Part shown: piece by piece, positions 37,587-48,237 of the stretch
How the letters are laid out: every line of letters starts with the position of its first letter
Position numbering within the stretch: the first letter of the stretch is position 1
NCBI GenBank assembly: GCA_017545185.1
Contig: JAFWQJ010000079.1
Coordinates: forward strand, 1 to 64,000
Length of the DNA: 64,000 bases
Source: Oscillospiraceae bacterium
GTDB lineage: Bacteria > Bacillota > Clostridia > Oscillospirales > Ruminococcaceae
Direction: 5' to 3'
Notes under the pieces: model-generated
The model's database searches: none
What the model saw: only the letters and a program-made list of their open reading frames with translations
Told to the model about the DNA's origin: nothing
Position numbers and translations under genes: made by a program

Positions 37587-37610
37587 CTGTGTATTCATGA
37601 CGATCGTCAA

Positions 37611-37643
37611 AGCATCTCTGCACCGGCAGGGATGCTTTTTTTT
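37611..37643 (+). terminator. terminator / attenuator before rtcB
   Basis: AGCATCTCTGC-ACCG-GCAGGGATGCT followed by eight T. No full-length gene ends here, and rtcB starts 26 bases later without a clear promoter of its own. Confidence 0.75.
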
Positions 37644-37668
37644 GCGGGCACTCCGGAAAGGACAATTC

Positions 37669-38877
37669 ATGTTTGAAATTCAGGGCAAATACGCTTCTGC
37701 AAAGGTTTTTGCGGATATCGCAGAGGAAAGCGCCGTCGCGCAGATCCTGTCCCTGTGCAATCAGCCGGTGAGTGCCGGTGCAAAGATCCGCATCATGCCG
37801 GATGTCCACGCCGGTGCAGGCTGCACGATCGGCACGACCATGACAGTCACAGACACCGCGATCCCGAATCTCGTCGGTGTCGATATCGGCTGCGGCATGG
37901 AGACCGTCCGGCTCAAAGAAAAGCATATCGAGCTGCAGAAGCTCGACAAGCTGATCTACCGGAGCATTCCGTCCGGATTTTCCGTCAGGGAGACGCCGCA
38001 CCGGTTTGCATCGCGCTTTGCACCGGAACTGCTTTACTGCGCCGATAACATTCACGTTCCGCGCATGATGCTGAGCATCGGAACGCTCGGCGGCGGCAAT
38101 CATTTCATCGAGGCCGATCAAAGCGAGGACGGCAGCATTTATCTGGTCATCCACTCCGGCTCACGGCATCTCGGCGTCGAGGTCGCAAAATACTATCAGG
38201 AGGAAGCCTACCGGCAGCTGAACGCAGCCTCAAAGGACGAGGTCGATGCGCTGATCGCGTCGCTGAAAGCACAGGGGAAGGAAACGCAGATCCAGAAGGC
38301 ACTGAAAAAGCTGAAAGCCGAAAAGCGCACCGATGTCCCGAAGCATCTTGCGTATACCGCAGGCAGACTGTTTGAACAGTATATCCACGACATGAAGCTG
38401 ACGCAGGAATTTGCAATGCTCAGCCGGAAAGCCATGATCGACGAGCTGATCCGCGGCATGGGGCTGCATATTGCGGATCAGTTCACGACGATCCACAATT
38501 ATATCGATACGGAGCGCATGATCCTGCGGAAGGGCGCAGTCTCTGCACGGGCAGGCGAAAAGCTGCTGATCCCGATGAATATGCGAGACGGCAGCCTGAT
38601 CTGCACGGGCAGGGGCAATGACGACTGGAACCAGTCCGCTCCGCACGGCGCAGGGAGACTGATGTCCCGCGCCGATGCAAAGGCGTCGTTCACGGTCTCC
38701 GAATTCAAAAAGCAGATGGCCGGCATCTATACCACATCCGTCGGGAGCGGCACGCTGGACGAATGCCCGATGGCCTATAAGCCGATGGAAGCGATCACCG
38801 GATGCATCGGTGATACCGTCGAGATCAATGAGATCATCCGGCCGATCTACAACTTTAAGGCAGGTGCAGAGGAATGA
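37669..38877 (+). CDS. rtcB: RNA-splicing ligase RtcB
   Basis: 402 residues; ATG at 37669 follows GGAAAGGA. RtcB joins RNA 2',3'-cyclic phosphate (or 3'-phosphate) ends to 5'-OH ends using GTP and Mn2+. Core motifs are visible: IMPDVHAGAGCTIGTTM (metal/His), VGVDIGCGMETV (metal Cys and Asp), LGGGNHFIE, VIHSGSRHLG (His) and APHGAGRLMSRADA, where the C-terminal HGAGR His is guanylylated. Length fits the short bacterial class. Expression probably depends on readthrough of the terminator at 37611. It overlaps the next small gene by four bases (ATGA). Confidence 0.95.
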   Translation: MFEIQGKYASAKVFADIAEESAVAQILSLCNQPVSAGAKIRIMPDVHAGAGCTIGTTMTVTDTAIPNLVGVDIGCGMETVRLKEKHIELQKLDKLIYRSIPSGFSVRETPHRFASRFAPELLYCADNIHVPRMMLSIGTLGGGNHFIEADQSEDGSIYLVIHSGSRHLGVEVAKYYQEEAYRQLNAASKDEVDALIASLKAQGKETQIQKALKKLKAEKRTDVPKHLAYTAGRLFEQYIHDMKLTQEFAMLSRKAMIDELIRGMGLHIADQFTTIHNYIDTERMILRKGAVSARAGEKLLIPMNMRDGSLICTGRGNDDWNQSAPHGAGRLMSRADAKASFTVSEFKKQMAGIYTTSVGSGTLDECPMAYKPMEAITGCIGDTVEINEIIRPIYNFKAGAEE

Positions 38878-39146: not shown

Positions 39147-41703
39147 CGCTGCCTTCTCCGGTCAGATACCGGCAGAGCATGACCGCATCCGCGACGGAAA
39201 CCTTCCCGTACGCGTTGACATCGCCGCGCAGCGGGGCATTGTCTGCCGGTTCGCTGCCGGTATACCGGATCTGAGGCTCCGCAGTCTCCTGATAGCTGAA
39301 CCGGATATCATCCAGCGCCCCGCGGAATCCCTTTCCGACCACGGCAAGATCCGATTCCGCCGCACACATCACATCCAGCGGCGTGACGCTGCAGGCTTTG
39401 CGGTCTGCCTGCTGACCGTCGATCAGCAAAGATGCTGTCCCGTCAAGGAAACGCAGCGTAACGCGGTGCCATTCGCCTTTGGAGAGTGCCGGTGCTGTCA
39501 GAGAATATGTATCCCTGCCGTCCGAAACGGTCAGGCGCGTTTTTCCGTCCGCATCGGAAGGCGTCAGCATCAGATACGCACGGTCATCTCCGAAATGCAG
39601 GAGCTCCTGTCCATTCTGTCCGCCCTTCCAGAGCACCCCGAGACTGATCTGCAGATCATCGGTCATCAGGATGCCGCTGTCAAGCTGCAGACAGCCGCCG
39701 CCGTCAAAGCTGACGACGCCCTTTGCAGAGGTACGCTCGGACACCCATTCTGCGCCGTTCAGGCGGATGCCGGTCGCGGTATAGGCATCCGCGCCCCAAA
39801 AGCCTGTCCGGTCAGCAAAATCATAAGAAGCAAGATGCCCTTCCGCCGTCTGATGCCAGCCGCCCTCATCCAGCCAGCCGAACCCGACGCCGCTGTTTTT
39901 CTGCTCCTCATTCGCGTAATCGCCGTCCGTGATCGCCTGCCCGGAATATACGCCGCTGCCGGTCAGATACGAGGTACCCTTTGCACAGGCGCGGTCTTTC
40001 AGCGTGACCGCATCACAGACATAGGCCTTCTGCATGACGGACGCATTGCCGGAGATGCTGCACATTCCGGTGACGACCGCGTTGCCGCTCACGACGGCAT
40101 TGCCGATGATCGTCACGCTGCCCGTTTTCCAGCCGCCGTCCGCATAGACCCAGCCGCCGCCGTGCACGCAGGCATGTCCGGAAATGACCGCATGATCCTG
40201 CACAACGGTATCACCCGCGACCACTGCATGACCCGTGATCCTTGCTTCTCCGGAAACCTTCGCATTGCCGAGCACCATTGCCTCCGGGCCGACATAAACG
40301 GAATCGGCGACCTTAGCAGTATCCGCAACCCAGCCGCCGCCGTTTGCATGGATATGGCCGTTTCCTTTCTGATACCCGCCGGACTGCTGCACCGACGCGC
40401 CGGTCAGCCGGATCTCATAGGGATACCGTCTGCGCTCGTCGCCGGTGCGGTAGGGCGAATCCTTTTCCTTATGGAACGCGTTGACCGGATAAAGCTTTTC
40501 CGGCATGGCGGATACGGTCAGATACGCCTTTGCCATGCCCGCAGCAGAGACCCCTGCCGTCTCCCCGCTGCCGAACAGATCGGAATACCGCACATTACCG
40601 GACGCATCCTCCGTAACAATACATGCCTGCCATGCCGCATTCGGATCATCCGAAAGACCGCGCAGCTCTGCGGTGATCTCTCCGCCCGTGATCTGAAGCG
40701 GGATCACATTGATGCCGCCCTGCATCGGTGCTTCCCACTGCGGTGCCTGCAGCCAGCCGCTGCCGGTATCCTGCGGGACTGTATAAAACAGGTTCCGGTA
40801 ATACGGCGCATCCTTGCACTTCTGCGCAAATTCTGCGCGGTAGGCTTCTCTCGCGCCGAGATCAAAGGTCGCCATGCGCTTGGCATAATGCCCGAACACG
40901 GTCTGCACATCCGTCCCGAACAGCCGCGTGATCGTATCAAACGGATACTCCCCCGGCTTCGCCTCGGAGATCAGCCGTTTGACCGCAAACTGCCCGAGCC
41001 TCGGCAGATCATCCGGATTCGTTTCCAGATACACAAGGAACGGCCAGACCTCGTAATAATCGCGGCCGTGCGGATAGGCCATGTTCAGATTGCGGATATA
41101 CGGCTCGAACCAGCAGGTCCTGACTGTTCCGGTATAATAGCTGCTGCTTAAATACATCTCGCGGAACCAGTTTGCAAGCGGCTCCCACCATGCGCCGGTG
41201 ATCTCCTGATCGACCCAAGCCTTCTGCTGCATCGTCACGACATGACCGAACTCATGCGCGATCGTCAAGTCATCGAGCATCGCCTCCGGACTGATGATCT
41301 CAATGCCGTAACCGTCCTCCGCGCTCATGAACGCCCACCCATCCGGATACTGAGCCAGTCCGGTATTGGTCAAATAGACATTCGTTTTGTATTTCTGCGT
41401 GCTTCTGCCGTAGATATCGACATTCATATCCGTCATGCCGAGGAACTCGCCGTAGCATTTCCAGAGCTTTTCGTAATCGGCAAGATTGCGCTGCAGAAAC
41501 GCATCGCTGACCTTTCCGGTCGTGTCATTGTTCCCGTAGAAAATGACAAAATGCTCCGATTCCGCATAATGCGCCGTCTGACAGTAGCCCCATTTGTCGC
41601 GGATGCGGTATTCCTCCGCTGCAAGCGCATGTTCCGGCAGCAGATCAAGCATCGCAGAAGCTGTTGCCGCAGCCGTCAGCAATGCCGCTGTTTTTCTGTT
41701 CAT
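39058..41703 (-). CDS. secreted DUF6055 protein with hexapeptide helix, LamG domain and dockerin
   Basis: 881 residues; the start MNRKTAALL at 41703 follows GGAGGGG. Signal peptide 1-29. Residues about 40-330 form a DUF6055 metallopeptidase-like domain with the zinc motif HEFGH (150-154) and EPLANWFREM downstream. About 460-640 holds left-handed beta-helix hexapeptide repeats of the acetyltransferase type (VSGEARITGHAVVAGDTVV). A LamG/concanavalin-like domain follows (about 650-800), then a dockerin (822-881). The first dockerin calcium loop reads DVNAYG, with Tyr replacing a coordinating Asp. It should be a cellulosomal hydrolase or protease; its substrate is unknown. Confidence 0.82.
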   Translation of the reverse strand: MNRKTAALLTAAATASAMLDLLPEHALAAEEYRIRDKWGYCQTAHYAESEHFVIFYGNNDTTGKVSDAFLQRNLADYEKLWKCYGEFLGMTDMNVDIYGRSTQKYKTNVYLTNTGLAQYPDGWAFMSAEDGYGIEIISPEAMLDDLTIAHEFGHVVTMQQKAWVDQEITGAWWEPLANWFREMYLSSSYYTGTVRTCWFEPYIRNLNMAYPHGRDYYEVWPFLVYLETNPDDLPRLGQFAVKRLISEAKPGEYPFDTITRLFGTDVQTVFGHYAKRMATFDLGAREAYRAEFAQKCKDAPYYRNLFYTVPQDTGSGWLQAPQWEAPMQGGINVIPLQITGGEITAELRGLSDDPNAAWQACIVTEDASGNVRYSDLFGSGETAGVSAAGMAKAYLTVSAMPEKLYPVNAFHKEKDSPYRTGDERRRYPYEIRLTGASVQQSGGYQKGNGHIHANGGGWVADTAKVADSVYVGPEAMVLGNAKVSGEARITGHAVVAGDTVVQDHAVISGHACVHGGGWVYADGGWKTGSVTIIGNAVVSGNAVVTGMCSISGNASVMQKAYVCDAVTLKDRACAKGTSYLTGSGVYSGQAITDGDYANEEQKNSGVGFGWLDEGGWHQTAEGHLASYDFADRTGFWGADAYTATGIRLNGAEWVSERTSAKGVVSFDGGGCLQLDSGILMTDDLQISLGVLWKGGQNGQELLHFGDDRAYLMLTPSDADGKTRLTVSDGRDTYSLTAPALSKGEWHRVTLRFLDGTASLLIDGQQADRKACSVTPLDVMCAAESDLAVVGKGFRGALDDIRFSYQETAEPQIRYTGSEPADNAPLRGDVNAYGKVSVADAVMLCRYLTGEGSVTDWQAGDLNADSRLGADDLTLLKRLLLG

Positions 41704-41749
41704 CGTAACCCCTCCCCTTTTCTCCGCAGTCCTGCGGGAATCTGCTTTC

Positions 41750-41778
41750 ATTGTACTATAGATTTCCGGCCGCGTCAA
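41750..41778 (-). promoter_or_regulatory. promoter of the DUF6055 dockerin gene
   Basis: Minus strand TTGACG (41778-41773), 17-base spacer, TACAAT (41755-41750) in the context TATAGTACAAT, shared with 55613 and 57921. Confidence 0.75.
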
Positions 41779-41907
41779 TGAACAATCCTGCAAAAAGGCT
41801 GCGGCTTTGTCAGAAATGCAAAACTGTACAGTCCGCGGCGGCAAAAAAGACAGCCGGAATCAAACACGATCCGCACCGAAATTGTATACAATTATGATTA
41901 TAATGCC

Positions 41908-41936
41908 TTGACTTCATGCCCGTTCTGTGCTATGAT
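41908..41936 (+). promoter_or_regulatory. promoter of the zinc-ribbon/VWA/PurA-like operon
   Basis: TTGACT (41908-41913), 17-base spacer, TATGAT (41931-41936), 35 bases before the ATG at 41972. Confidence 0.7.
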
Positions 41937-41971
41937 AGTATCATACAAACGCGATCAAGGGAGGGCAGAAT

Positions 41972-42940
41972 ATGAAGAACCTGAACTGCAGAAACTGCGG
42001 CGGTCCGATGCTGATCGACCCGTCCGGCACGACGGCGCGTTGTCCGTACTGCCGCACGGATTATGTGCTCGATCACAAGGACACGGACTACTACCGCGAA
42101 TTCTACGCACGCATGAAAAGCTTTTTCCGGCTTTCCGCGGACGGTCAGGAGCGCAGACGCCGTGCAGACGAGCTATGGAAGCAGGCCGAGCAGGAGACCT
42201 TTTCCTGCAGCGACGGCAGACAGATCAATGTCGCGAGCCTGCACCGGTACAGCGACCGCGTCATGACCGCCTATACCGCAAGACAGTCTGTTATCTTCCG
42301 GTTTGAGCCCGGTCAGACGGAAAATGCAGACAAATACCGCAGGGCCGTTTCCATGCTCGACTATCCGTCCGCCGATGTCAGAAATCTCTCCCGGTTTTTC
42401 CCGGTCATCAGCGGCGGGTTCTCCCTTACCGACGATTCCGTGCTGCTCGCCGTCAAAAAGAGCGAGGACGAATATCCGCTCCGGCTGTTCGGAAAGCTCT
42501 CCGGCCGGCATACGGCATGGCTGATCGGGCGCATGGAAAATCTCTGCTGCGTGCTGGAATACAGCAGCATCGTGCACCCGGATTTCGGCATAGACACGAT
42601 CTATATCGACCCCTACGATCATCAGGCAAGCCTGTACGGCGGCTGGTGGAATGCGGTGCGGAATCATACGGCCGTCAACGGCAAAGTGCTGACCACACGC
42701 CATAACCTGACAGCGCTGCGTGAAACCGCCGCACAGGTGCTCGGATTCCCGAATGCTGCAGCGGCAAAGGAAACAGACGATATCCCCAAGCCGTTTGCGG
42801 ATTTCCTGAAATCGGAGCCGGAAAGCAATGCCTACGACGATTTTGCAAAATGGGACGATGTACTGATCCGCTCCTACGGTGAACGCAAGTTCATCACAAT
42901 GGATACCGACGATGAGCAGATCTACGGCAAGGGTACATAA
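41972..42940 (+). CDS. zinc-ribbon protein of unknown function, first gene of the VWA/PurA-like operon
   Basis: 322 residues. The N-terminus is a zinc ribbon (CRNCGGPM ... ARCPYCRTDY, two C-x2-C knuckles). The rest has no recognised family: an amphipathic helical stretch at about 45-80, then an alpha/beta part (VIFRFEPGQTENADKYRRA, LYGGWWNAVRNHTAV). There is no signal peptide, so it should be cytoplasmic. GGAGGGC precedes the ATG. It lies two bases upstream of the first VWA gene, so the products are probably partners. A role as adaptor or regulator is a guess. Confidence 0.75.
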   Translation: MKNLNCRNCGGPMLIDPSGTTARCPYCRTDYVLDHKDTDYYREFYARMKSFFRLSADGQERRRRADELWKQAEQETFSCSDGRQINVASLHRYSDRVMTAYTARQSVIFRFEPGQTENADKYRRAVSMLDYPSADVRNLSRFFPVISGGFSLTDDSVLLAVKKSEDEYPLRLFGKLSGRHTAWLIGRMENLCCVLEYSSIVHPDFGIDTIYIDPYDHQASLYGGWWNAVRNHTAVNGKVLTTRHNLTALRETAAQVLGFPNAAAAKETDDIPKPFADFLKSEPESNAYDDFAKWDDVLIRSYGERKFITMDTDDEQIYGKGT

Positions 42941-42942
42941 TT

Positions 42943-43842
42943 ATGGGACAGGGAAGCTATACGGCGAGTGACTGGAACAGGCTGAGAAGCAGTTTCGGCA
43001 CCGAAAAGAAAGCAGAGCAGATCTTCAAAGGCAGCAGCACGCAGAACGCCTCGCTGAAAAACGTGTTCCGCGAAGCGCGTGACAATCCCGATTCCCCGCA
43101 GTCCACGCCGGTCATCATCGGCTTCGACGTAACGACGTCCATGGGATTTCTTGCGGAGGAATTGGCGCTCCGTGCGCTGAACCGTTCGGTCATGTATCTC
43201 TACGAGCACAAGCCGATCACCTGTCCGCAGGTGCTCTGCTGCGCGATCGGCGACAGCAAAACCGACAAAGTGCCTTTTCAGGTAACGCAGTTCGAGAGCG
43301 ATATCCGCATCATCAAACAGCTGACCGCACTCTATCTTGAAGGCGGCGGCGGCGGAAACGGCGGCGAATCCTATCATCTTGCATGGTATTTCGCGGCGCA
43401 CCGCACCCGGACAGACTGCTGGGAGAAACGCAGACAGAAGGGCATCCTCATCACGATCGGTGACGACCGCTGCCACAGGCTGCTCACGCGGAATGAGATC
43501 GCGCGCGTATTCGGCGACACCGCGGAATACGATCTGTCCGATTCCGAGCTGCTCGCTGCCGCAGAGGAAAAATACCATGTATTCCACATTTCCATTGACA
43601 AGGGAATGCCCGGAGACGACCGGATCTCCGCGGACTGGAACGCACTGATGCCCGGCAGAGCTGCGGTCATCGGCAAAAAGAATATCGCCTGCCTTGCGGA
43701 GCTGATCTTTGCACTGATCTCCGTGGCAGAGGGCAGAACGCAGAACGAAGCGCTGCGGGCCGTTGACCAGCGTGCCGCCGAGATCATCGCGGACGCACTC
43801 GCACCGATTCGCATGGCCGATCAGAATATCATTTCTTTTTAA
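42943..43842 (+). CDS. VWA-like protein 1
   Basis: 299 residues, no signal peptide. After an N-terminal extension (MGQGSYTASDWNRLRSS) comes a von Willebrand A-type fold with the metal (MIDAS) motif FDVTTSMGF: Asp62, Thr64 and Ser66, the Ser/Thr variant of D-x-S-x-S. A Gly-rich loop (LEGGGGGNGGESYHLAWY) and ILITIGDDRC supply the later MIDAS elements. Cytoplasmic VWA proteins act as Mg2+-dependent protein-interaction modules, often beside ATPases. It is a clear paralogue of the next gene and is probably a subunit of one assembly with it. Confidence 0.8.
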   Translation: MGQGSYTASDWNRLRSSFGTEKKAEQIFKGSSTQNASLKNVFREARDNPDSPQSTPVIIGFDVTTSMGFLAEELALRALNRSVMYLYEHKPITCPQVLCCAIGDSKTDKVPFQVTQFESDIRIIKQLTALYLEGGGGGNGGESYHLAWYFAAHRTRTDCWEKRRQKGILITIGDDRCHRLLTRNEIARVFGDTAEYDLSDSELLAAAEEKYHVFHISIDKGMPGDDRISADWNALMPGRAAVIGKKNIACLAELIFALISVAEGRTQNEALRAVDQRAAEIIADALAPIRMADQNIISF

Positions 43843-43854
43843 GGAGGTTCAAAC

Positions 43855-44733
43855 ATGGGACACGGAAGCTACAATGCAGCAGACTGGAGCCGTCTGAAAA
43901 GCAGCAAGGGCATCAGCAGCAGTTCGACTGCAAATGACATTTTCAGCGGCAACAGCGCACAGGAAAAGTATCAGCCGCGGTTCATTTCCGTCCGCGAATC
44001 CAGAGACAGCGAGGACTCGCCGGCATCCACGCCGATCATCATCGGCTTTGATTCGACCGGCTCCATGGGCTATCTGGCTGCGGAGATCGCAAAGAACTCG
44101 CTCAACAAGACCGCGACCATGATCCTTGAAAAGCGGCCTGTCACCGACCCGCACCTGATGTGCGCGGCCTTTACGGCACCGAACAGCTCGATCCCGATGC
44201 AGGTCACGCAGTTTGAGGCGGATATCCGCGTCGTTGAACAGCTGCTGGACTTCGTACTCGGCGGCGGCAACCGCTACAGCTATGATGCCCTCGTCTGGTA
44301 TTTTGCGCTGAAACACACTTCGACGGACTGCTTTGAGAAGCGCGGCAAAAAGGGGTTCATCTTCTGCATCGGCGATGAGGTCGGTGACGACGGGAATGGG
44401 AACATTCTGTCGGAAAAAGAGATCGCGTTCGTGTTCGGCGACGAAAACGCGAAGGACTACAAAACGAAAAAGCTCGCCGCACTGGTCAGCGAGAAATACG
44501 AGGTGTTCCACATTGTCACCGGCAGCCGCACGGTTTCTTCCCTGCGGACATGGGAACCGCTCCTGCCCGGACGCAACGCTGTCATTGAGCCTGAAAACAT
44601 CGAATATCTGGCTGAGGTCATGATCTCTTTGATGCAGGTCGCAGGCGGCATGTCCAAGGAGGATACGCTTTCCCAGTGGACAGACCCGGCAAAAGCTGTC
44701 GTCGCAAAAGCACTTTCGACGATCAGCCTGTAA
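43855..44733 (+). CDS. VWA-like protein 2 (paralogue of the previous gene)
   Basis: 292 residues sharing the N-terminal signature MGHGSYNAADWSRLKSS, the MIDAS motif FDSTGSMGY (Asp66, Thr68, Ser70), the T-D-C-F-E-K-R stretch and FIFCIGDE with VWA-like protein 1. It clearly derives from an old duplication, since the two are similar but not near-identical. A strong AAGGAGG site lies upstream, 12 bases after the previous stop. Keeping two diverged copies side by side suggests a heteromer. Confidence 0.8.
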   Translation: MGHGSYNAADWSRLKSSKGISSSSTANDIFSGNSAQEKYQPRFISVRESRDSEDSPASTPIIIGFDSTGSMGYLAAEIAKNSLNKTATMILEKRPVTDPHLMCAAFTAPNSSIPMQVTQFEADIRVVEQLLDFVLGGGNRYSYDALVWYFALKHTSTDCFEKRGKKGFIFCIGDEVGDDGNGNILSEKEIAFVFGDENAKDYKTKKLAALVSEKYEVFHIVTGSRTVSSLRTWEPLLPGRNAVIEPENIEYLAEVMISLMQVAGGMSKEDTLSQWTDPAKAVVAKALSTISL

Positions 44734-44742
44734 CCGCGCACC

Positions 44743-45987
44743 ATGTCTGTTACGATCGTAATCGGCAAGAATTTCGGGGACGAGGGAAAAGGACTTGCCG
44801 CAGATCATTTTGCACTGAGAAGCAGAAATGCCGGAAAAGCGGCAGTCTGCGTGCGGCATAACGGCGGTGCACAGGCCGGACATACCGTGGATTTTCCGGA
44901 CAGGCGGTTCGTGTTCTCGCAGCTGTCATCCGGTTCCTTCCGCGGTGCGGATACATACTGGGCAGACAGCTTCCTGCCCGATCTCTATAAGCTTTCGGAG
45001 GAAACGGAACGGTTCCGCATACTTGCGGGAGCCGTCCCGCAGATCTATGCATCCCCCGCCTGCCGCTGCACATATATCGGCGACATTCTGCTGAATATGC
45101 TGCTGGAAACGTCCCGCGGCAAAGAACGTCACGGCTCCTGCGGCATGGGCATCAATGAAGCCGTTGTGCGTTCGGAACACTTCCCGCTGCCGCTCGGTGA
45201 GATCGCCGGAGCCGGTGCGGAAGCGCTGTACCGGAACATGCGCAGGATACAGCAGGAATATCTGCCGGTTCGGCTCACTGCACTGAACATTAACCTGAAT
45301 GCTGCGGGTGAATACGGTGCGCTGCTGCAAAATGACAATGTGCTCCGCAATGCAGCGGAGGTCATGGCAAGGAATGCTGAATCCGTGACGCTCCGCGAAA
45401 CTGCGTTTTTACGGGAATACGACGATATCCTGTTTGAAGGCGCACAGGGGCTGCTGCTCGACGAACTGTATACGAAATTTGCACCGCACCTGACGGCCTC
45501 CCGCACGGGACTGACAGAGCCGGCACGCATCCTGCGGGCACTGTACGGTGACAGTTCCGCGCAGCCGGAAACGAAGATCGTTTACATCACGCGGTCGTAT
45601 GTCACGCGGCACGGGGCGGGGCCGCTCCCGCATGAAAACCCGGAGCAGCCGTATCCATTCGGCAGCAGTGACCGCACAAATGTACAGAATGAATGGCAGG
45701 GCACGATCCGCTCCGCGCCGCACGGCAGTCCCGAAGAATTTGCGGAGGCTGTCCGCGCCGATCTTGCAGAAAGCAAGCTTCCGGCAGACGTATCGCTGTT
45801 TGTCACGCATCTGAACGAATCGGACGGATGCATCATAACGACAGACGGCAGAATCCCCGTCACGGATTACTGCGCCGGACTAAACGGACTGTTCGGAACG
45901 CTGTACTGCTCTGCCAGCCCTTATGCAGAGGATGTCCGCGCTTTCCGTCTCCGACGGTTCCGCTGCAGCATCTCACAAAAAACATGA
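44743..45987 (+). CDS. divergent adenylosuccinate synthetase (PurA)-like protein
   Basis: 414 residues. PurA features are present: GKNFGDEGKGLAAD (P-loop and catalytic Asp), HNGGAQAGHTV (catalytic His; PurA has GGNNAGHT), HGSCGMGINEA in place of the GIGP loop, DILFEGAQGLLLDE, and TRHGAGPLPHE as in TR-x-G-x-GP. The IMP-binding TTTGRxRR element is replaced by SSDRTNVQNEWQGTIR, so the nucleotide substrate is probably not plain IMP. It lies in an operon of zinc-ribbon and VWA genes, not with purine genes, so housekeeping PurA is unlikely. The ATG is nine bases after the previous stop and lacks an evident ribosome site, suggesting coupled translation. Confidence 0.8.
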   Translation: MSVTIVIGKNFGDEGKGLAADHFALRSRNAGKAAVCVRHNGGAQAGHTVDFPDRRFVFSQLSSGSFRGADTYWADSFLPDLYKLSEETERFRILAGAVPQIYASPACRCTYIGDILLNMLLETSRGKERHGSCGMGINEAVVRSEHFPLPLGEIAGAGAEALYRNMRRIQQEYLPVRLTALNINLNAAGEYGALLQNDNVLRNAAEVMARNAESVTLRETAFLREYDDILFEGAQGLLLDELYTKFAPHLTASRTGLTEPARILRALYGDSSAQPETKIVYITRSYVTRHGAGPLPHENPEQPYPFGSSDRTNVQNEWQGTIRSAPHGSPEEFAEAVRADLAESKLPADVSLFVTHLNESDGCIITTDGRIPVTDYCAGLNGLFGTLYCSASPYAEDVRAFRLRRFRCSISQKT

Positions 45988-46002
45988 AAGGAACAGATTG
46001 CA

Positions 46003-48237
46003 ATGAAAAACCGCTGCATAGCTGCACTGCTCAGCGCTGCATCGCTGCTGCTGACCGGTGTGCTGTCCGCTGTGCCGGTCTCTGCAGACCGCACGGCCTT
46101 CACAGTCGGATTTGATGCGGAATTTCCGCCCTACGGCTATCAGAATGAAGCCGGTGAATACGTCGGCTTTGACCTCTCGCTCGCAGAGGAGGTCTGCGAA
46201 CGCCGCGGCTGGGAGCTGAAAAAGGTACCGATCGACTGGAACTCCAAGGATATGGAGCTGAAAACCGGCGCGATCGACTGTATCTGGAACGGCTTTACGA
46301 TCAACGGCCGCGAAAACGATTACACATGGACAGTGCCCTATGTCGATAATTCGCAGGTCGCGGTCGTCCGGAGCGATTCGGATATCCGGGCGCTCTCCGA
46401 CCTCTCCGGCAAGATCGTTGCCGTGCAGGCGGACAGCTCCGCGCTCGCTGCCTTTACCGGTGACGATGCCGAGGAAGCGAACAAAGAACTCGCAGAGACA
46501 TTCAAGGATCTCCGGCAGGTCGGTGATTATAACAGCGCGTTCATGAATCTTGAAAGCGGCGCGGTCGATGTGATATGCATGGATATCGGCGTCGCGAATT
46601 ATGAGATCGCCGCTCGCAGCGGGAAATTCACGATGCTTGATGAGCATATTTCCTCTGAGGAATACGGCGTCGGCTTTCTGAAGGGCAACACGGAGCTGCG
46701 CGACGAGGTACAGGAGACCCTGTTTGAAATGGCGGCGGACGGTACCTTTGAACGCATCGCAAAGGAATGGGAGCTCTCCGACTGTGTCTGTCTGACTGCA
46801 CCCGCCGATGCGCAGCTGGAGGACGGCAGAGAGACCTTCACCGTCGGATTTGACGCGGAATTTCCGCCCTACGGCTATCAGAACGAGGCCGGTGAATATG
46901 TCGGCTTTGACCTCTCATTGGCGGAGGAGGTCTGCAGCCGACGCGGCTGGACACTTGTCAAGCAGCCGATCGACTGGAACTCCAAGGATATGGAGCTGAA
47001 AACCAGCGCGATCGACTGTATCTGGAACGGCTTTACGATCAACGGACGCGAAAACGATTACACATGGTCTGTGCCGTATGTCGATAACTCGCAGGTCGTC
47101 GTCGTGAAGAAGGGCTCCGATATCACCGCACTAAACGATCTGGAAGGAAAGGTCGTGGCTGTTCAGGCGGACAGCTCCGCACTGGCCGCCTTTACCGGCG
47201 ACGATGCAGAGGAATCCAATATCGCACTTGCCGCATCCTTCCGCGATCTGCAGCAGGTCGGCGATTACAACACGGCATTCCTCAATCTCGAAAGCGGCGC
47301 TGTGGATGCGGTCTGCATGGATATCGGCGTGGCCAATTACGAGATCGAAAAGCGCGGCGATCAGTTCGTCATGCTTTCAGAGCATGTTTCCTCGGAGCAG
47401 TACGGCATCGGCTTCCTGAAAGGCAACACGGCGCTGCGCGATTCCGTACAGGAGACCCTGTTTGAAATGCTCGACGACGGCAGCTTTGCCCGCATTGCTG
47501 ATGAATGGGGGCTTTCCGGCAGCGTATGCCTGAGCCGCGAAACGGAAAACAAGGCTGAAACCGCCGCCGAGACCGTTTCCTTCGGTGAAAAGCTCGGCAG
47601 CATCTGTATGCAGCTGCTGAAAGGTGTCGGTGCATCGCTTGCGATCTTCTTCCTGACGCTGCTCTTTGCGCTGCCGCTCGGTCTGCTGATCGCAGCGGGC
47701 AAAATGAGCAAATTCAAGCCGCTGAGCTGGCTTATCACGGTGTATATCTCGATCGTCCGCGGTACGCCGCTGATGCTGCAGCTTCTGGTCGTTTTCTTCG
47801 GCCCGTATTACCTCTTTGGCATCCAGACCTCGGCTGCTTACCGCTTCTATGCGGTCATCATCGGGTTTACGCTGAATTATGCCGCGTATTTCGCGGAGAT
47901 CTACCGCTCGGGCATTCAGGCCGTTCCGGTAGGACAGCACGAGGCCTGCGAGATCCTCGGATATTCCAGAACGCAGAAGTTCTTTAAGATCGTTTTCCCG
48001 CAGATGGTCAAGAACATCATCCCCTCGGTGACGAACGAGGTCATCACGCTGGTCAAGGACACCTCGCTGGCATTCGCGATCTCCTATACGGAGATGTTCA
48101 CGCTGGCCAAGCAAGTCGCGGCGGCACAGGCAACGATCCTGCCGCTGTTCATCGCGGGCGTGTTCTACTACATCTTCAATGCAGTCGTTGCATTTGTCAT
48201 GGACCGCATTGAAAAGAAGCTCAACTATTTCAGATAA
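46003..48237 (+). CDS. amino-acid ABC transporter: two substrate-binding domains fused to permease
   Basis: 744 residues. Signal peptide 1-29, then two SBP_bac_3 domains (about 32-265 and 278-511) and a HisM/GlnP-type permease (about 530-744) with the EAA-like loop of PVGQHEACEILGYSRTQ. The two binding domains are nearly identical (both TVGFDAEFPPYGYQNEAGEY), indicating recent duplication. Fused two-SBD transporters such as GlnPQ take up polar amino acids and can bind different ligands with each domain. The gene starts 15 bases after the PurA-like gene with no terminator between, so it may be in the same operon. Its ATPase follows directly. Confidence 0.92.
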   Translation: MKNRCIAALLSAASLLLTGVLSAVPVSADRTAFTVGFDAEFPPYGYQNEAGEYVGFDLSLAEEVCERRGWELKKVPIDWNSKDMELKTGAIDCIWNGFTINGRENDYTWTVPYVDNSQVAVVRSDSDIRALSDLSGKIVAVQADSSALAAFTGDDAEEANKELAETFKDLRQVGDYNSAFMNLESGAVDVICMDIGVANYEIAARSGKFTMLDEHISSEEYGVGFLKGNTELRDEVQETLFEMAADGTFERIAKEWELSDCVCLTAPADAQLEDGRETFTVGFDAEFPPYGYQNEAGEYVGFDLSLAEEVCSRRGWTLVKQPIDWNSKDMELKTSAIDCIWNGFTINGRENDYTWSVPYVDNSQVVVVKKGSDITALNDLEGKVVAVQADSSALAAFTGDDAEESNIALAASFRDLQQVGDYNTAFLNLESGAVDAVCMDIGVANYEIEKRGDQFVMLSEHVSSEQYGIGFLKGNTALRDSVQETLFEMLDDGSFARIADEWGLSGSVCLSRETENKAETAAETVSFGEKLGSICMQLLKGVGASLAIFFLTLLFALPLGLLIAAGKMSKFKPLSWLITVYISIVRGTPLMLQLLVVFFGPYYLFGIQTSAAYRFYAVIIGFTLNYAAYFAEIYRSGIQAVPVGQHEACEILGYSRTQKFFKIVFPQMVKNIIPSVTNEVITLVKDTSLAFAISYTEMFTLAKQVAAAQATILPLFIAGVFYYIFNAVVAFVMDRIEKKLNYFR
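46099..47530 (+). repeat. tandem duplication of the substrate-binding domain
   Basis: Copy 1 begins at 46099 and copy 2 at 46837, an offset of 738 bases (246 codons). They are highly similar at nucleotide level over most of their length, for example GATCGACTGGAACTCCAAGG in both. Confidence 0.85.

Follow-up and report, generated by a model that had tools for sequence, protein, structure and literature searches.

Four tightly packed genes in a 64,000-nucleotide stretch of Oscillospiraceae DNA (assembly GCA_017545185.1, contig JAFWQJ010000079.1; the window, below, means this whole stretch) belong to a conserved mobile module whose core is a paralogue of the adenylosuccinate synthetase PurA with an altered acceptor site, a conclusion that we regard as well supported. 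All four lie on the forward strand (41972-45987), separated by gaps of 2, 12 and 9 bases, and encode a zinc-ribbon and kinase-like protein (gene 1), two paralogous VWA proteins with a metal-ion-dependent adhesion site (MIDAS), and the PurA-like enzyme. They would represent the Ruminococcus version of a mobile cassette in which one or two VWA/MIDAS proteins and the PurA-like enzyme are joined, in most bacterial and some phage copies, by a J-domain or zinc-ribbon pseudokinase-like protein (J/Zn protein). The original prediction, made from the sequence of the window, of an undescribed-looking operon of four tightly packed genes is borne out: the genes travel together, and no description of the module was found in the literature searched, which excludes most subscription journals, including the Ter-system literature. 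No known kind of system built around a PurA paralogue and a VWA partner turned up in the libraries and literature searched.

Sequence comparison shows that the VWA and PurA-like genes are a conserved pair, inherited together, in bacteria, plasmids and phages. Scans made with the VWA protein only, considering the best 80 of at least 313 loci on genome contigs and the best 80 of at least 356 on viral contigs, find a PurA-like gene downstream on the same strand in all 80 genome loci and in 77 of the viral loci, mostly immediately after the VWA gene and 1 to 6 kb off in some viral loci. The three viral exceptions (L114, L154 and L164) have only 3.3, 2.0 and 0.4 kb of sequence past the VWA gene. 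When the PurA-like protein was used as query, the best 80 viral loci included 78 that were new (some on contigs already known), and 74 of these 78 contain a VWA gene, so that the neighbourhood search suggested with the original prediction came out in favour of co-travelling genes. Among the four loci without one, L237 and L246 are near contig ends, and L254 shares its contig with L125, the VWA gene being about 6 kb off. L226 is the only viral PurA-like locus with ample flanks, otherwise unaccounted for, that has no VWA gene within 6 kb.

In phage records, the PurA-like protein occurs in 208 and the VWA protein in 206, within the same host groups, the level at which the two sets were compared. 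The groups with the cassette are phages of Mycobacterium (Bixzunavirus in the records examined), Rhizobium and Vibrio, and one gut phage. Plasmids are also represented, with the VWA protein in 21 records; the three examined each have J/kinase-like, VWA and PurA-like genes, none with the TG[RK]PR segment of ordinary PurA. Downstream of the cassette on an Allorhizobium plasmid (L274:7408-10801) are an AAA ATPase and a DUF5682 protein. Pairwise identities of the PurA-like and VWA proteins are correlated (Mantel r = 0.784 for 110 loci drawn from 176; permutation maximum 0.11), as are those of the J/Zn and VWA proteins (r = 0.892 for 84 loci; permutation maximum 0.071). A FastTree phylogeny of 133 PurA-like and 17 ordinary PurA sequences, rooted on ordinary PurA and weakly supported at several deep nodes, unites the PurA-like proteins in a single clade (support 0.98) set off by a long branch; phage and bacterium labels change at least seven times, whereas shuffling them gives 40 changes on average and never fewer than 30. 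The correlated identities, together with these changes, fit a mobile cassette whose genes are inherited together. It is sparsely distributed: matches above 200 bits occur in 4 of 197 genomes of the window's taxonomic family, the window's own included, and in a sample of the phylum at E <= 1e-70 that genome stands alone among 398.

The PurA-like protein is a member of the PurA superfamily (97.2 bits against PF00709, cut-off 27), scoring well under the cut-offs of two NCBIfam PurA models (80.1 bits versus 402, and 61.1 versus 395.55). Its AlphaFold model, computed with 67 sequences in the alignment, has a predicted local distance difference test (pLDDT) score of 94.0, and a fold search with this model returned 39 PDB chains at E <= 0.001, all of them PurA or PurZ-type; the match to 1cg3 has an E-value of 4.3e-20. 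Deduplication of 240 PurA-like proteins left 205, which we set against 17 ordinary PurA sequences, all 17 from the window's taxonomic family. Asp13, Lys16, His41 and Gln224 are the catalytic residues of PurA, and His47 of the PurA-like enzyme corresponds to His41 in E. coli numbering; the Asp and Lys of GDEGKG and the His of GGxQxGH are invariant in the PurA-like set (Table 1). Much of the nucleotide-activating machinery is, as far as residues can tell, kept, and the enzyme has the PurA fold together with the residues responsible for phosphorylating a purine nucleotide at its 6-oxo group. In one viral PurA-like gene (L166:3403-5925), a reading of the frame shows the catalytic His in the GGSQAGH motif immediately followed by an intein-like insert, which is in line with a conserved active site.

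The acceptor side is different. The TG[RK]PR segment is absent from all 205 PurA-like proteins and present in all 17 ordinary ones, and the window protein lacks the entire TTTGRxRR motif, which we take to be the 'aspartate-binding loop' of PurA. Besides the replacement residues of Table 1, the PurA-like proteins conserve Glu139 (191 of 205), Cys133 in place of Thr (183) and Arg143 (201), the last aligned with an acidic residue of ordinary PurA. The original prediction had described an IMP-binding element as replaced. The motif is indeed gone; as R303, inside this loop, touches both the aspartate substrate and the O2' of inosine monophosphate (IMP) according to PMC8342488, it is better named the aspartate loop.

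Two more conventional identities for the enzyme have to be weighed against these residues. A divergent adenylosuccinate synthetase could bind aspartate via new residues and supply AMP to phages or stressed cells, and the PurA fold, the catalytic residues and the Arg kept after the lost loop (R323) would suit it; we consider it unlikely, as TG[RK]PR is missing from every member, the host has its own PurA, and the near-constant VWA partner would be left unaccounted for. That host PurA, whose possible absence had been raised with the original prediction, is encoded on a separate contig of the same genome and scores 513.5 bits versus 96.6 for the window gene; the housekeeping identity is thereby rejected, and the locus is, as first stated, not a housekeeping purine locus. 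The second identity is a PurZ-type DNA-modification enzyme, placing 2-aminoadenine or another base in phage DNA, a comparison already drawn in the original prediction and encouraged by phage carriage and by the PHROG name '2-aminooxy adenylosuccinate synthetase'. The hallmark of phage PurZ, as given in PMC12884076, is a Ser in place of the catalytic Asp, and none of the 205 has it. The window protein reaches 29.5 bits against the PurZ model NF038379, with a cut-off of 300, and its gene sits among cellulosome and transporter genes, outside any phage. The comparison is thus unsupported; the catalytic Asp and the NCBIfam score led us to reject identity with PurZ or the Z-DNA pathway, and we hold a modification enzyme of this type to be highly improbable. 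The same product name is borne by the PurA-like genes of Mycobacterium, Rhizobium and Vibrio phages, where it is probably misleading, since all members compared keep the Asp that PurZ is without.

The two VWA proteins were correctly described at the outset as paralogues with MIDAS motifs: they are 43% identical (E 3e-74), and both carry DxTxS. By sequence, the VWA protein has no VWA match among PDB sequences, giving a single chance-level match (E 0.38), and only its MIDAS segment aligns to a TROVE profile, with low probability. Its identity as a VWA domain with MIDAS is decided by the predicted fold, which is of the VWA type, in combination with the DxS/TxS motif. The conserved N-terminus of VWA1, M-G-x-G-x-aromatic, falls in a stretch of low confidence in the predicted structure (mean pLDDT 65 for residues 1-10). 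Of the 80 genome loci, 23 (L031-L051, L053 and L055), from Ruminococcus, Lachnospiraceae and other Clostridia, have two VWA genes; the remaining 57 and all 80 viral loci from the VWA scan have one.

Gene 1 had been presented simply as a zinc-ribbon protein; the ribbon is there, and the protein also includes a kinase-like domain, which in other members follows a J domain. Gene 1 clusters with a family occupying the same slot in 109 loci (72 bacterial, 37 viral). In searches of the PDB, the profile of this family matches the kinase STK33 (E 7e-6) and J domains (E 1.1e-5), the STK33 match stopping just past the HRD loop, which points to kinase similarity at the sequence level. The N-terminal domain of 110 aligned family members, the window protein included, has the HPD motif of J domains in 54, a zinc ribbon in 46, neither in 10 and both in none, although a looser motif finds both in 4 of 115 sequences; the window protein lacks HPD and has the ribbon in its place. 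Pfam detects DnaJ in 27 of 61 members and TerY_C in one. Of the 110 aligned members, 19 have the catalytic Asp of the HRD site and one has an Asp at the DFG position, which was mapped by eye in the alignment, so most members should be pseudokinases. For instance, the member from phage I3 has HGA at the HRD site and DWC at the DFG site. This I3 protein (L025:5460-6590) matches many PADLOC kinase models, such as PD-T4-6 and MkoA, with the HRD aspartate absent.

A profile search places the J/Zn gene directly upstream of the VWA gene in 76 of 83 bacterial loci; four of the other seven are at contig ends, L028 and L029 have another upstream protein, and L100 has none. Of 159 viral loci, 61 have an adjacent J/Zn gene and 3 have one at another position, the remainder having another small family (16), a contig end (7) or nothing recognised (72). 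A second clustering, of 123 deduplicated viral loci, assigned 44 to the J/kinase-like family and 39 to an unnamed family of about 226 residues. In many phages and in two bacterial genomes, the place of the J/Zn pseudokinase, directly upstream of VWA, is taken by proteins of 186-226 residues for which Pfam gives no significant match (examples are L169:8875-9555, L026:6489-7097 and L028:11497-12057). In a few Lachnospiraceae loci (L068, L072, L075 and relatives), the cassette occurs within about 6 kb of dnaK/dnaJ/grpE-like genes, names assigned by reading the sequences of three neighbour-gene clusters; the proximity is notable because other forms of the cassette carry a J domain of their own.

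Such a composition invites a signalling interpretation, in which the PurA-like protein, loaded with IMP and GTP, is a nucleotide-sensing switch rather than a synthase, and purine or nicotinamide adenine dinucleotide (NAD) status passes via the VWA MIDAS to the pseudokinase. VWA, kinase-like and zinc-ribbon parts recall the TerY-P triad as outlined in PMC11090510, and the single TerY_C match, the general loss of kinase catalytic residues and the NrtR-type neighbours described below all agree with it. A pure sensor, however, would have no need of the catalytic Asp, Lys and His that every PurA-like member keeps, and no PP2C was found among the eight window proteins scanned (the four of the set and four flanking; other loci were not tested singly). 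We therefore rate the signalling triad as rather unlikely.

NrtR regulators respond to ADP-ribose and NAD metabolism. With a hidden Markov model (HMM) of the cluster and a threshold of 80 bits, an NrtR-type NUDIX protein is found beside the cassette in 27 of 83 bacterial loci, whether divergent, co-directional upstream or downstream; the hosts are Ruminococcus, Lachnospiraceae, Desulfosporosinus, Massilia, Competibacteraceae/Contendobacter and Pseudoroseomonas. Of the proteins given to Pfam, those of L028, L029, L030 and plasmid L274 are above its cut-off and that of plasmid L273 is below. NrtR-type neighbours occur on two of the three plasmids examined. The 17 viral matches to the HMM are 288-407 residues long, and the one scanned (L169) is of the NMNAT-NUDIX type. 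Beyond NrtR, no Pfam family was seen in more than two bacterial neighbourhoods (59 of 135 flanking open reading frames (ORFs), 20 loci; top 25 of 88 families). Distances to NAD genes were assessed in 49 phage records, with VWA positions accurate to about 1 kb. NAMPT lies within 10 kb of phage copies in 9 of 19 cases versus 2.4 expected, and within 5 kb in 7 of 19 versus 1.25; NADAR is within 10 kb in 6 of 15. The corresponding figures for a DNA-ligase control are 6 of 16 versus 2.3 and 4 of 16 versus 1.16. This control reduced an NAD-salvage neighbourhood in phages, which at first seemed strong, to weak support. A phage-defence or counter-defence cassette working on NAD or ADP-ribose chemistry would account for the NrtR-type neighbours, the NAMPT and NADAR genes near some phage copies, and the carriage by phages and plasmids. 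None of the four window proteins matches a PADLOC model at E <= 0.1, the ground on which a known defence system was rejected for them, and the phage distances resemble those of the control; such a cassette is a doubtful proposition.

The explanation that we prefer for the whole, tentatively and at slightly under an even chance, is a mobile cassette in which the PurA-like enzyme, with its VWA partner, activates a hypoxanthine-type nucleotide and joins it to an amine that is not free aspartate. The enzyme would spend GTP or ATP to activate the 6-oxo group and would then couple the activated nucleotide to this amine. Retention of Asp13 suggests that the nucleotide is IMP-like; it argues against PurZ and hence, as we infer, against substrates of the dGMP type. 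The VWA protein may act as the Mg-dependent partner of the enzyme, presenting or regulating the acceptor, the J/Zn pseudokinase-like protein may be an adaptor, in J-domain versions to Hsp70, and NrtR-flanked cassettes probably answer to a signal related to ADP-ribose or NAD. A role in stress or conflict is most likely, given the rarity of the cassette in the bacterial group sampled and its carriage by phages and plasmids. The earlier suggestion that the set may make a modified nucleotide is supported in part, as it fits the kept phosphoryl-transfer residues and the lost aspartate loop.

Several points weigh against the preferred explanation. The reaction, the acceptor and the biological role of the cassette are inferred, and the acceptor pocket was assessed from sequence alone; His290, Asn313, Gln319 or Arg323 could constitute a new aspartate site. 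The Gln of EGxQG, found in all 205 PurA-like proteins, discriminates little because only about one-third of the 17 ordinary PurA have Gln in that column. The third component is not universal, given the viral counts of the J/Zn gene. No NrtR gene adjoins the window locus, the two in this genome being on other contigs, and the proximity of NAMPT and NADAR in phages is not clearly above that of the DNA-ligase control.

A more specific version, quite unlikely in our estimate, is that the PurA-like enzyme is a protein nucleotide ligase. The purine 6-oxo group, activated with GTP or ATP, would be joined to the amine of the VWA N-terminal glycine, which would replace the alpha-amine of free aspartate to yield an N6-(glycyl-protein)-purine. 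Such a reaction would account for the near-constant gene pair, for the absence of the aspartate loop from every member compared alongside the kept phosphoryl-transfer residues, and for the conserved M-G-x-G-x-aromatic N-terminus on a low-confidence tail outside the VWA fold. If the preferred explanation is correct, PurA paralogues that occur in about 200 phage records and on plasmids, and that are named 'adenylosuccinate synthetase' in the annotations examined, make something else and belong to a cassette with no assigned function. Purine 6-oxo activation chemistry would then have a new use, VWA/MIDAS proteins and J-domain pseudokinases would have a new role, and the benefit of the cassette to the large phages that carry it could be approached. 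The Bixzunavirus copies, in phages of Mycobacterium smegmatis, make direct testing possible.

Table 1. Features of the four-gene set in the window (positions counted from the first base of the window)
Feature	Position	Strand	Basis or conservation
Sigma-70-like promoter, TTGACT-17-TATGAT, TG ahead of second hexamer	41908..41936	+	consensus match only
Gene 1, zinc-ribbon and kinase-like protein, 322 aa	41972..42940	+	ORF list
Zinc ribbon CxxC...CxxC, residues 6-27 of gene 1	41987..42052	+	sequence; weak Pfam ribbon match below cut-off
VWA protein 1, 299 aa	42943..43842	+	ORF list
N-terminal M-G-x-G-x-aromatic of VWA1	42943..42960	+	Gly2 97%, W/Y/F at position 6 ~95% (232 sequences)
MIDAS DxTxS of VWA1 (D62, T64, S66)	43126..43140	+	each ~99% of 232 sequences
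VWA protein 2, 292 aa, paralogue of VWA1	43855..44733	+	ORF list; alignment; phrog_2971, 1.4e-25
MIDAS DxTxS of VWA2 (D66-S70)	44050..44064	+	sequence; alignment with VWA1
PurA-like enzyme, 414 aa	44743..45987	+	ORF list; PF00709; AlphaFold model; PDB fold matches
GDEGKG loop, catalytic Asp13 and Lys16	44776..44793	+	Asp and Lys 205/205
GGAQAGH motif, catalytic His47	44863..44883	+	His 205/205; Gln44 for Asn of ordinary PurA 203/205
Family-specific His290	45610..45612	+	His 205/205; Val 17/17 in ordinary PurA
Segment replacing the TTTGRPRR loop	45667..45714	+	TG[RK]PR 0/205 versus 17/17; N313 205, Q319 204, R323 203

Transcription from one promoter, also part of the original prediction, holds up in part. 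The sigma-70-like site is present and a ggagg precedes the ATG at 41972, and the TTG 'ORF' beginning at 41908 has its start at the promoter itself; as four promoter-like sites are seen on both strands of 41700-46250 versus 2.1 expected in shuffles, a single promoter is consistent with the sequence without being singled out by it. An upstream riboswitch was considered and rejected, Rfam giving no match at gathering score in the window or in L035, L038, L044 and L056. The flanking genes, upstream a DUF6055/dockerin protein on the opposite strand and downstream an ABC transporter gene, are unrelated to the set. In the transporter protein (46003-48237), a permease domain and two solute-binding stretches share one chain. 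An RtcB-family RNA ligase gene (37597-38877) lies 3 kb upstream of the set; RtcB-like genes near the cassette clustered in only three loci. More dockerin proteins in the window agree with a cellulosome-bearing Ruminococcus, and the closest named relative is a Ruminococcus metagenome-assembled genome (locus L031), whose VWA protein is 98% identical.

The cassette resembles several known systems in part. With PurA (PF00709), the PurA-like family shares the fold and the catalytic Asp, Lys and His; unlike PurA, it lacks the TG[RK]PR loop, has His290, Asn313 and Gln319, falls under the NCBIfam purA cut-offs and is grouped with VWA and, here, pseudokinase genes. PurZ and PurZ0 of Z-genome phages are likewise PurA paralogues occurring in phages, and differ in the catalytic Asp and model score given above. 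The TerY-P triad, which according to PMC11090510 consists of a VWA protein, a PP2C and a Ser/Thr kinase with a C-terminal zinc ribbon, is similar in having a MIDAS VWA beside a zinc-ribbon kinase-like protein. It differs from the window set in that the latter has a PurA-like core, a ribbon that is N-terminal or swapped for a J domain, and a kinase-like domain mostly without the catalytic Asp, rather than an active kinase ending in a ribbon. Relatives of the cassette include the 'PurA-like adenylosuccinate synthetase' of Bixzunavirus mycobacteriophages, where kinase-like (J domain), VWA and PurA-like genes follow in the same order, in phage I3 with a small ORF ahead of the PurA-like gene; the two records examined are annotated gene by gene, with the VWA protein entered as a hypothetical protein.

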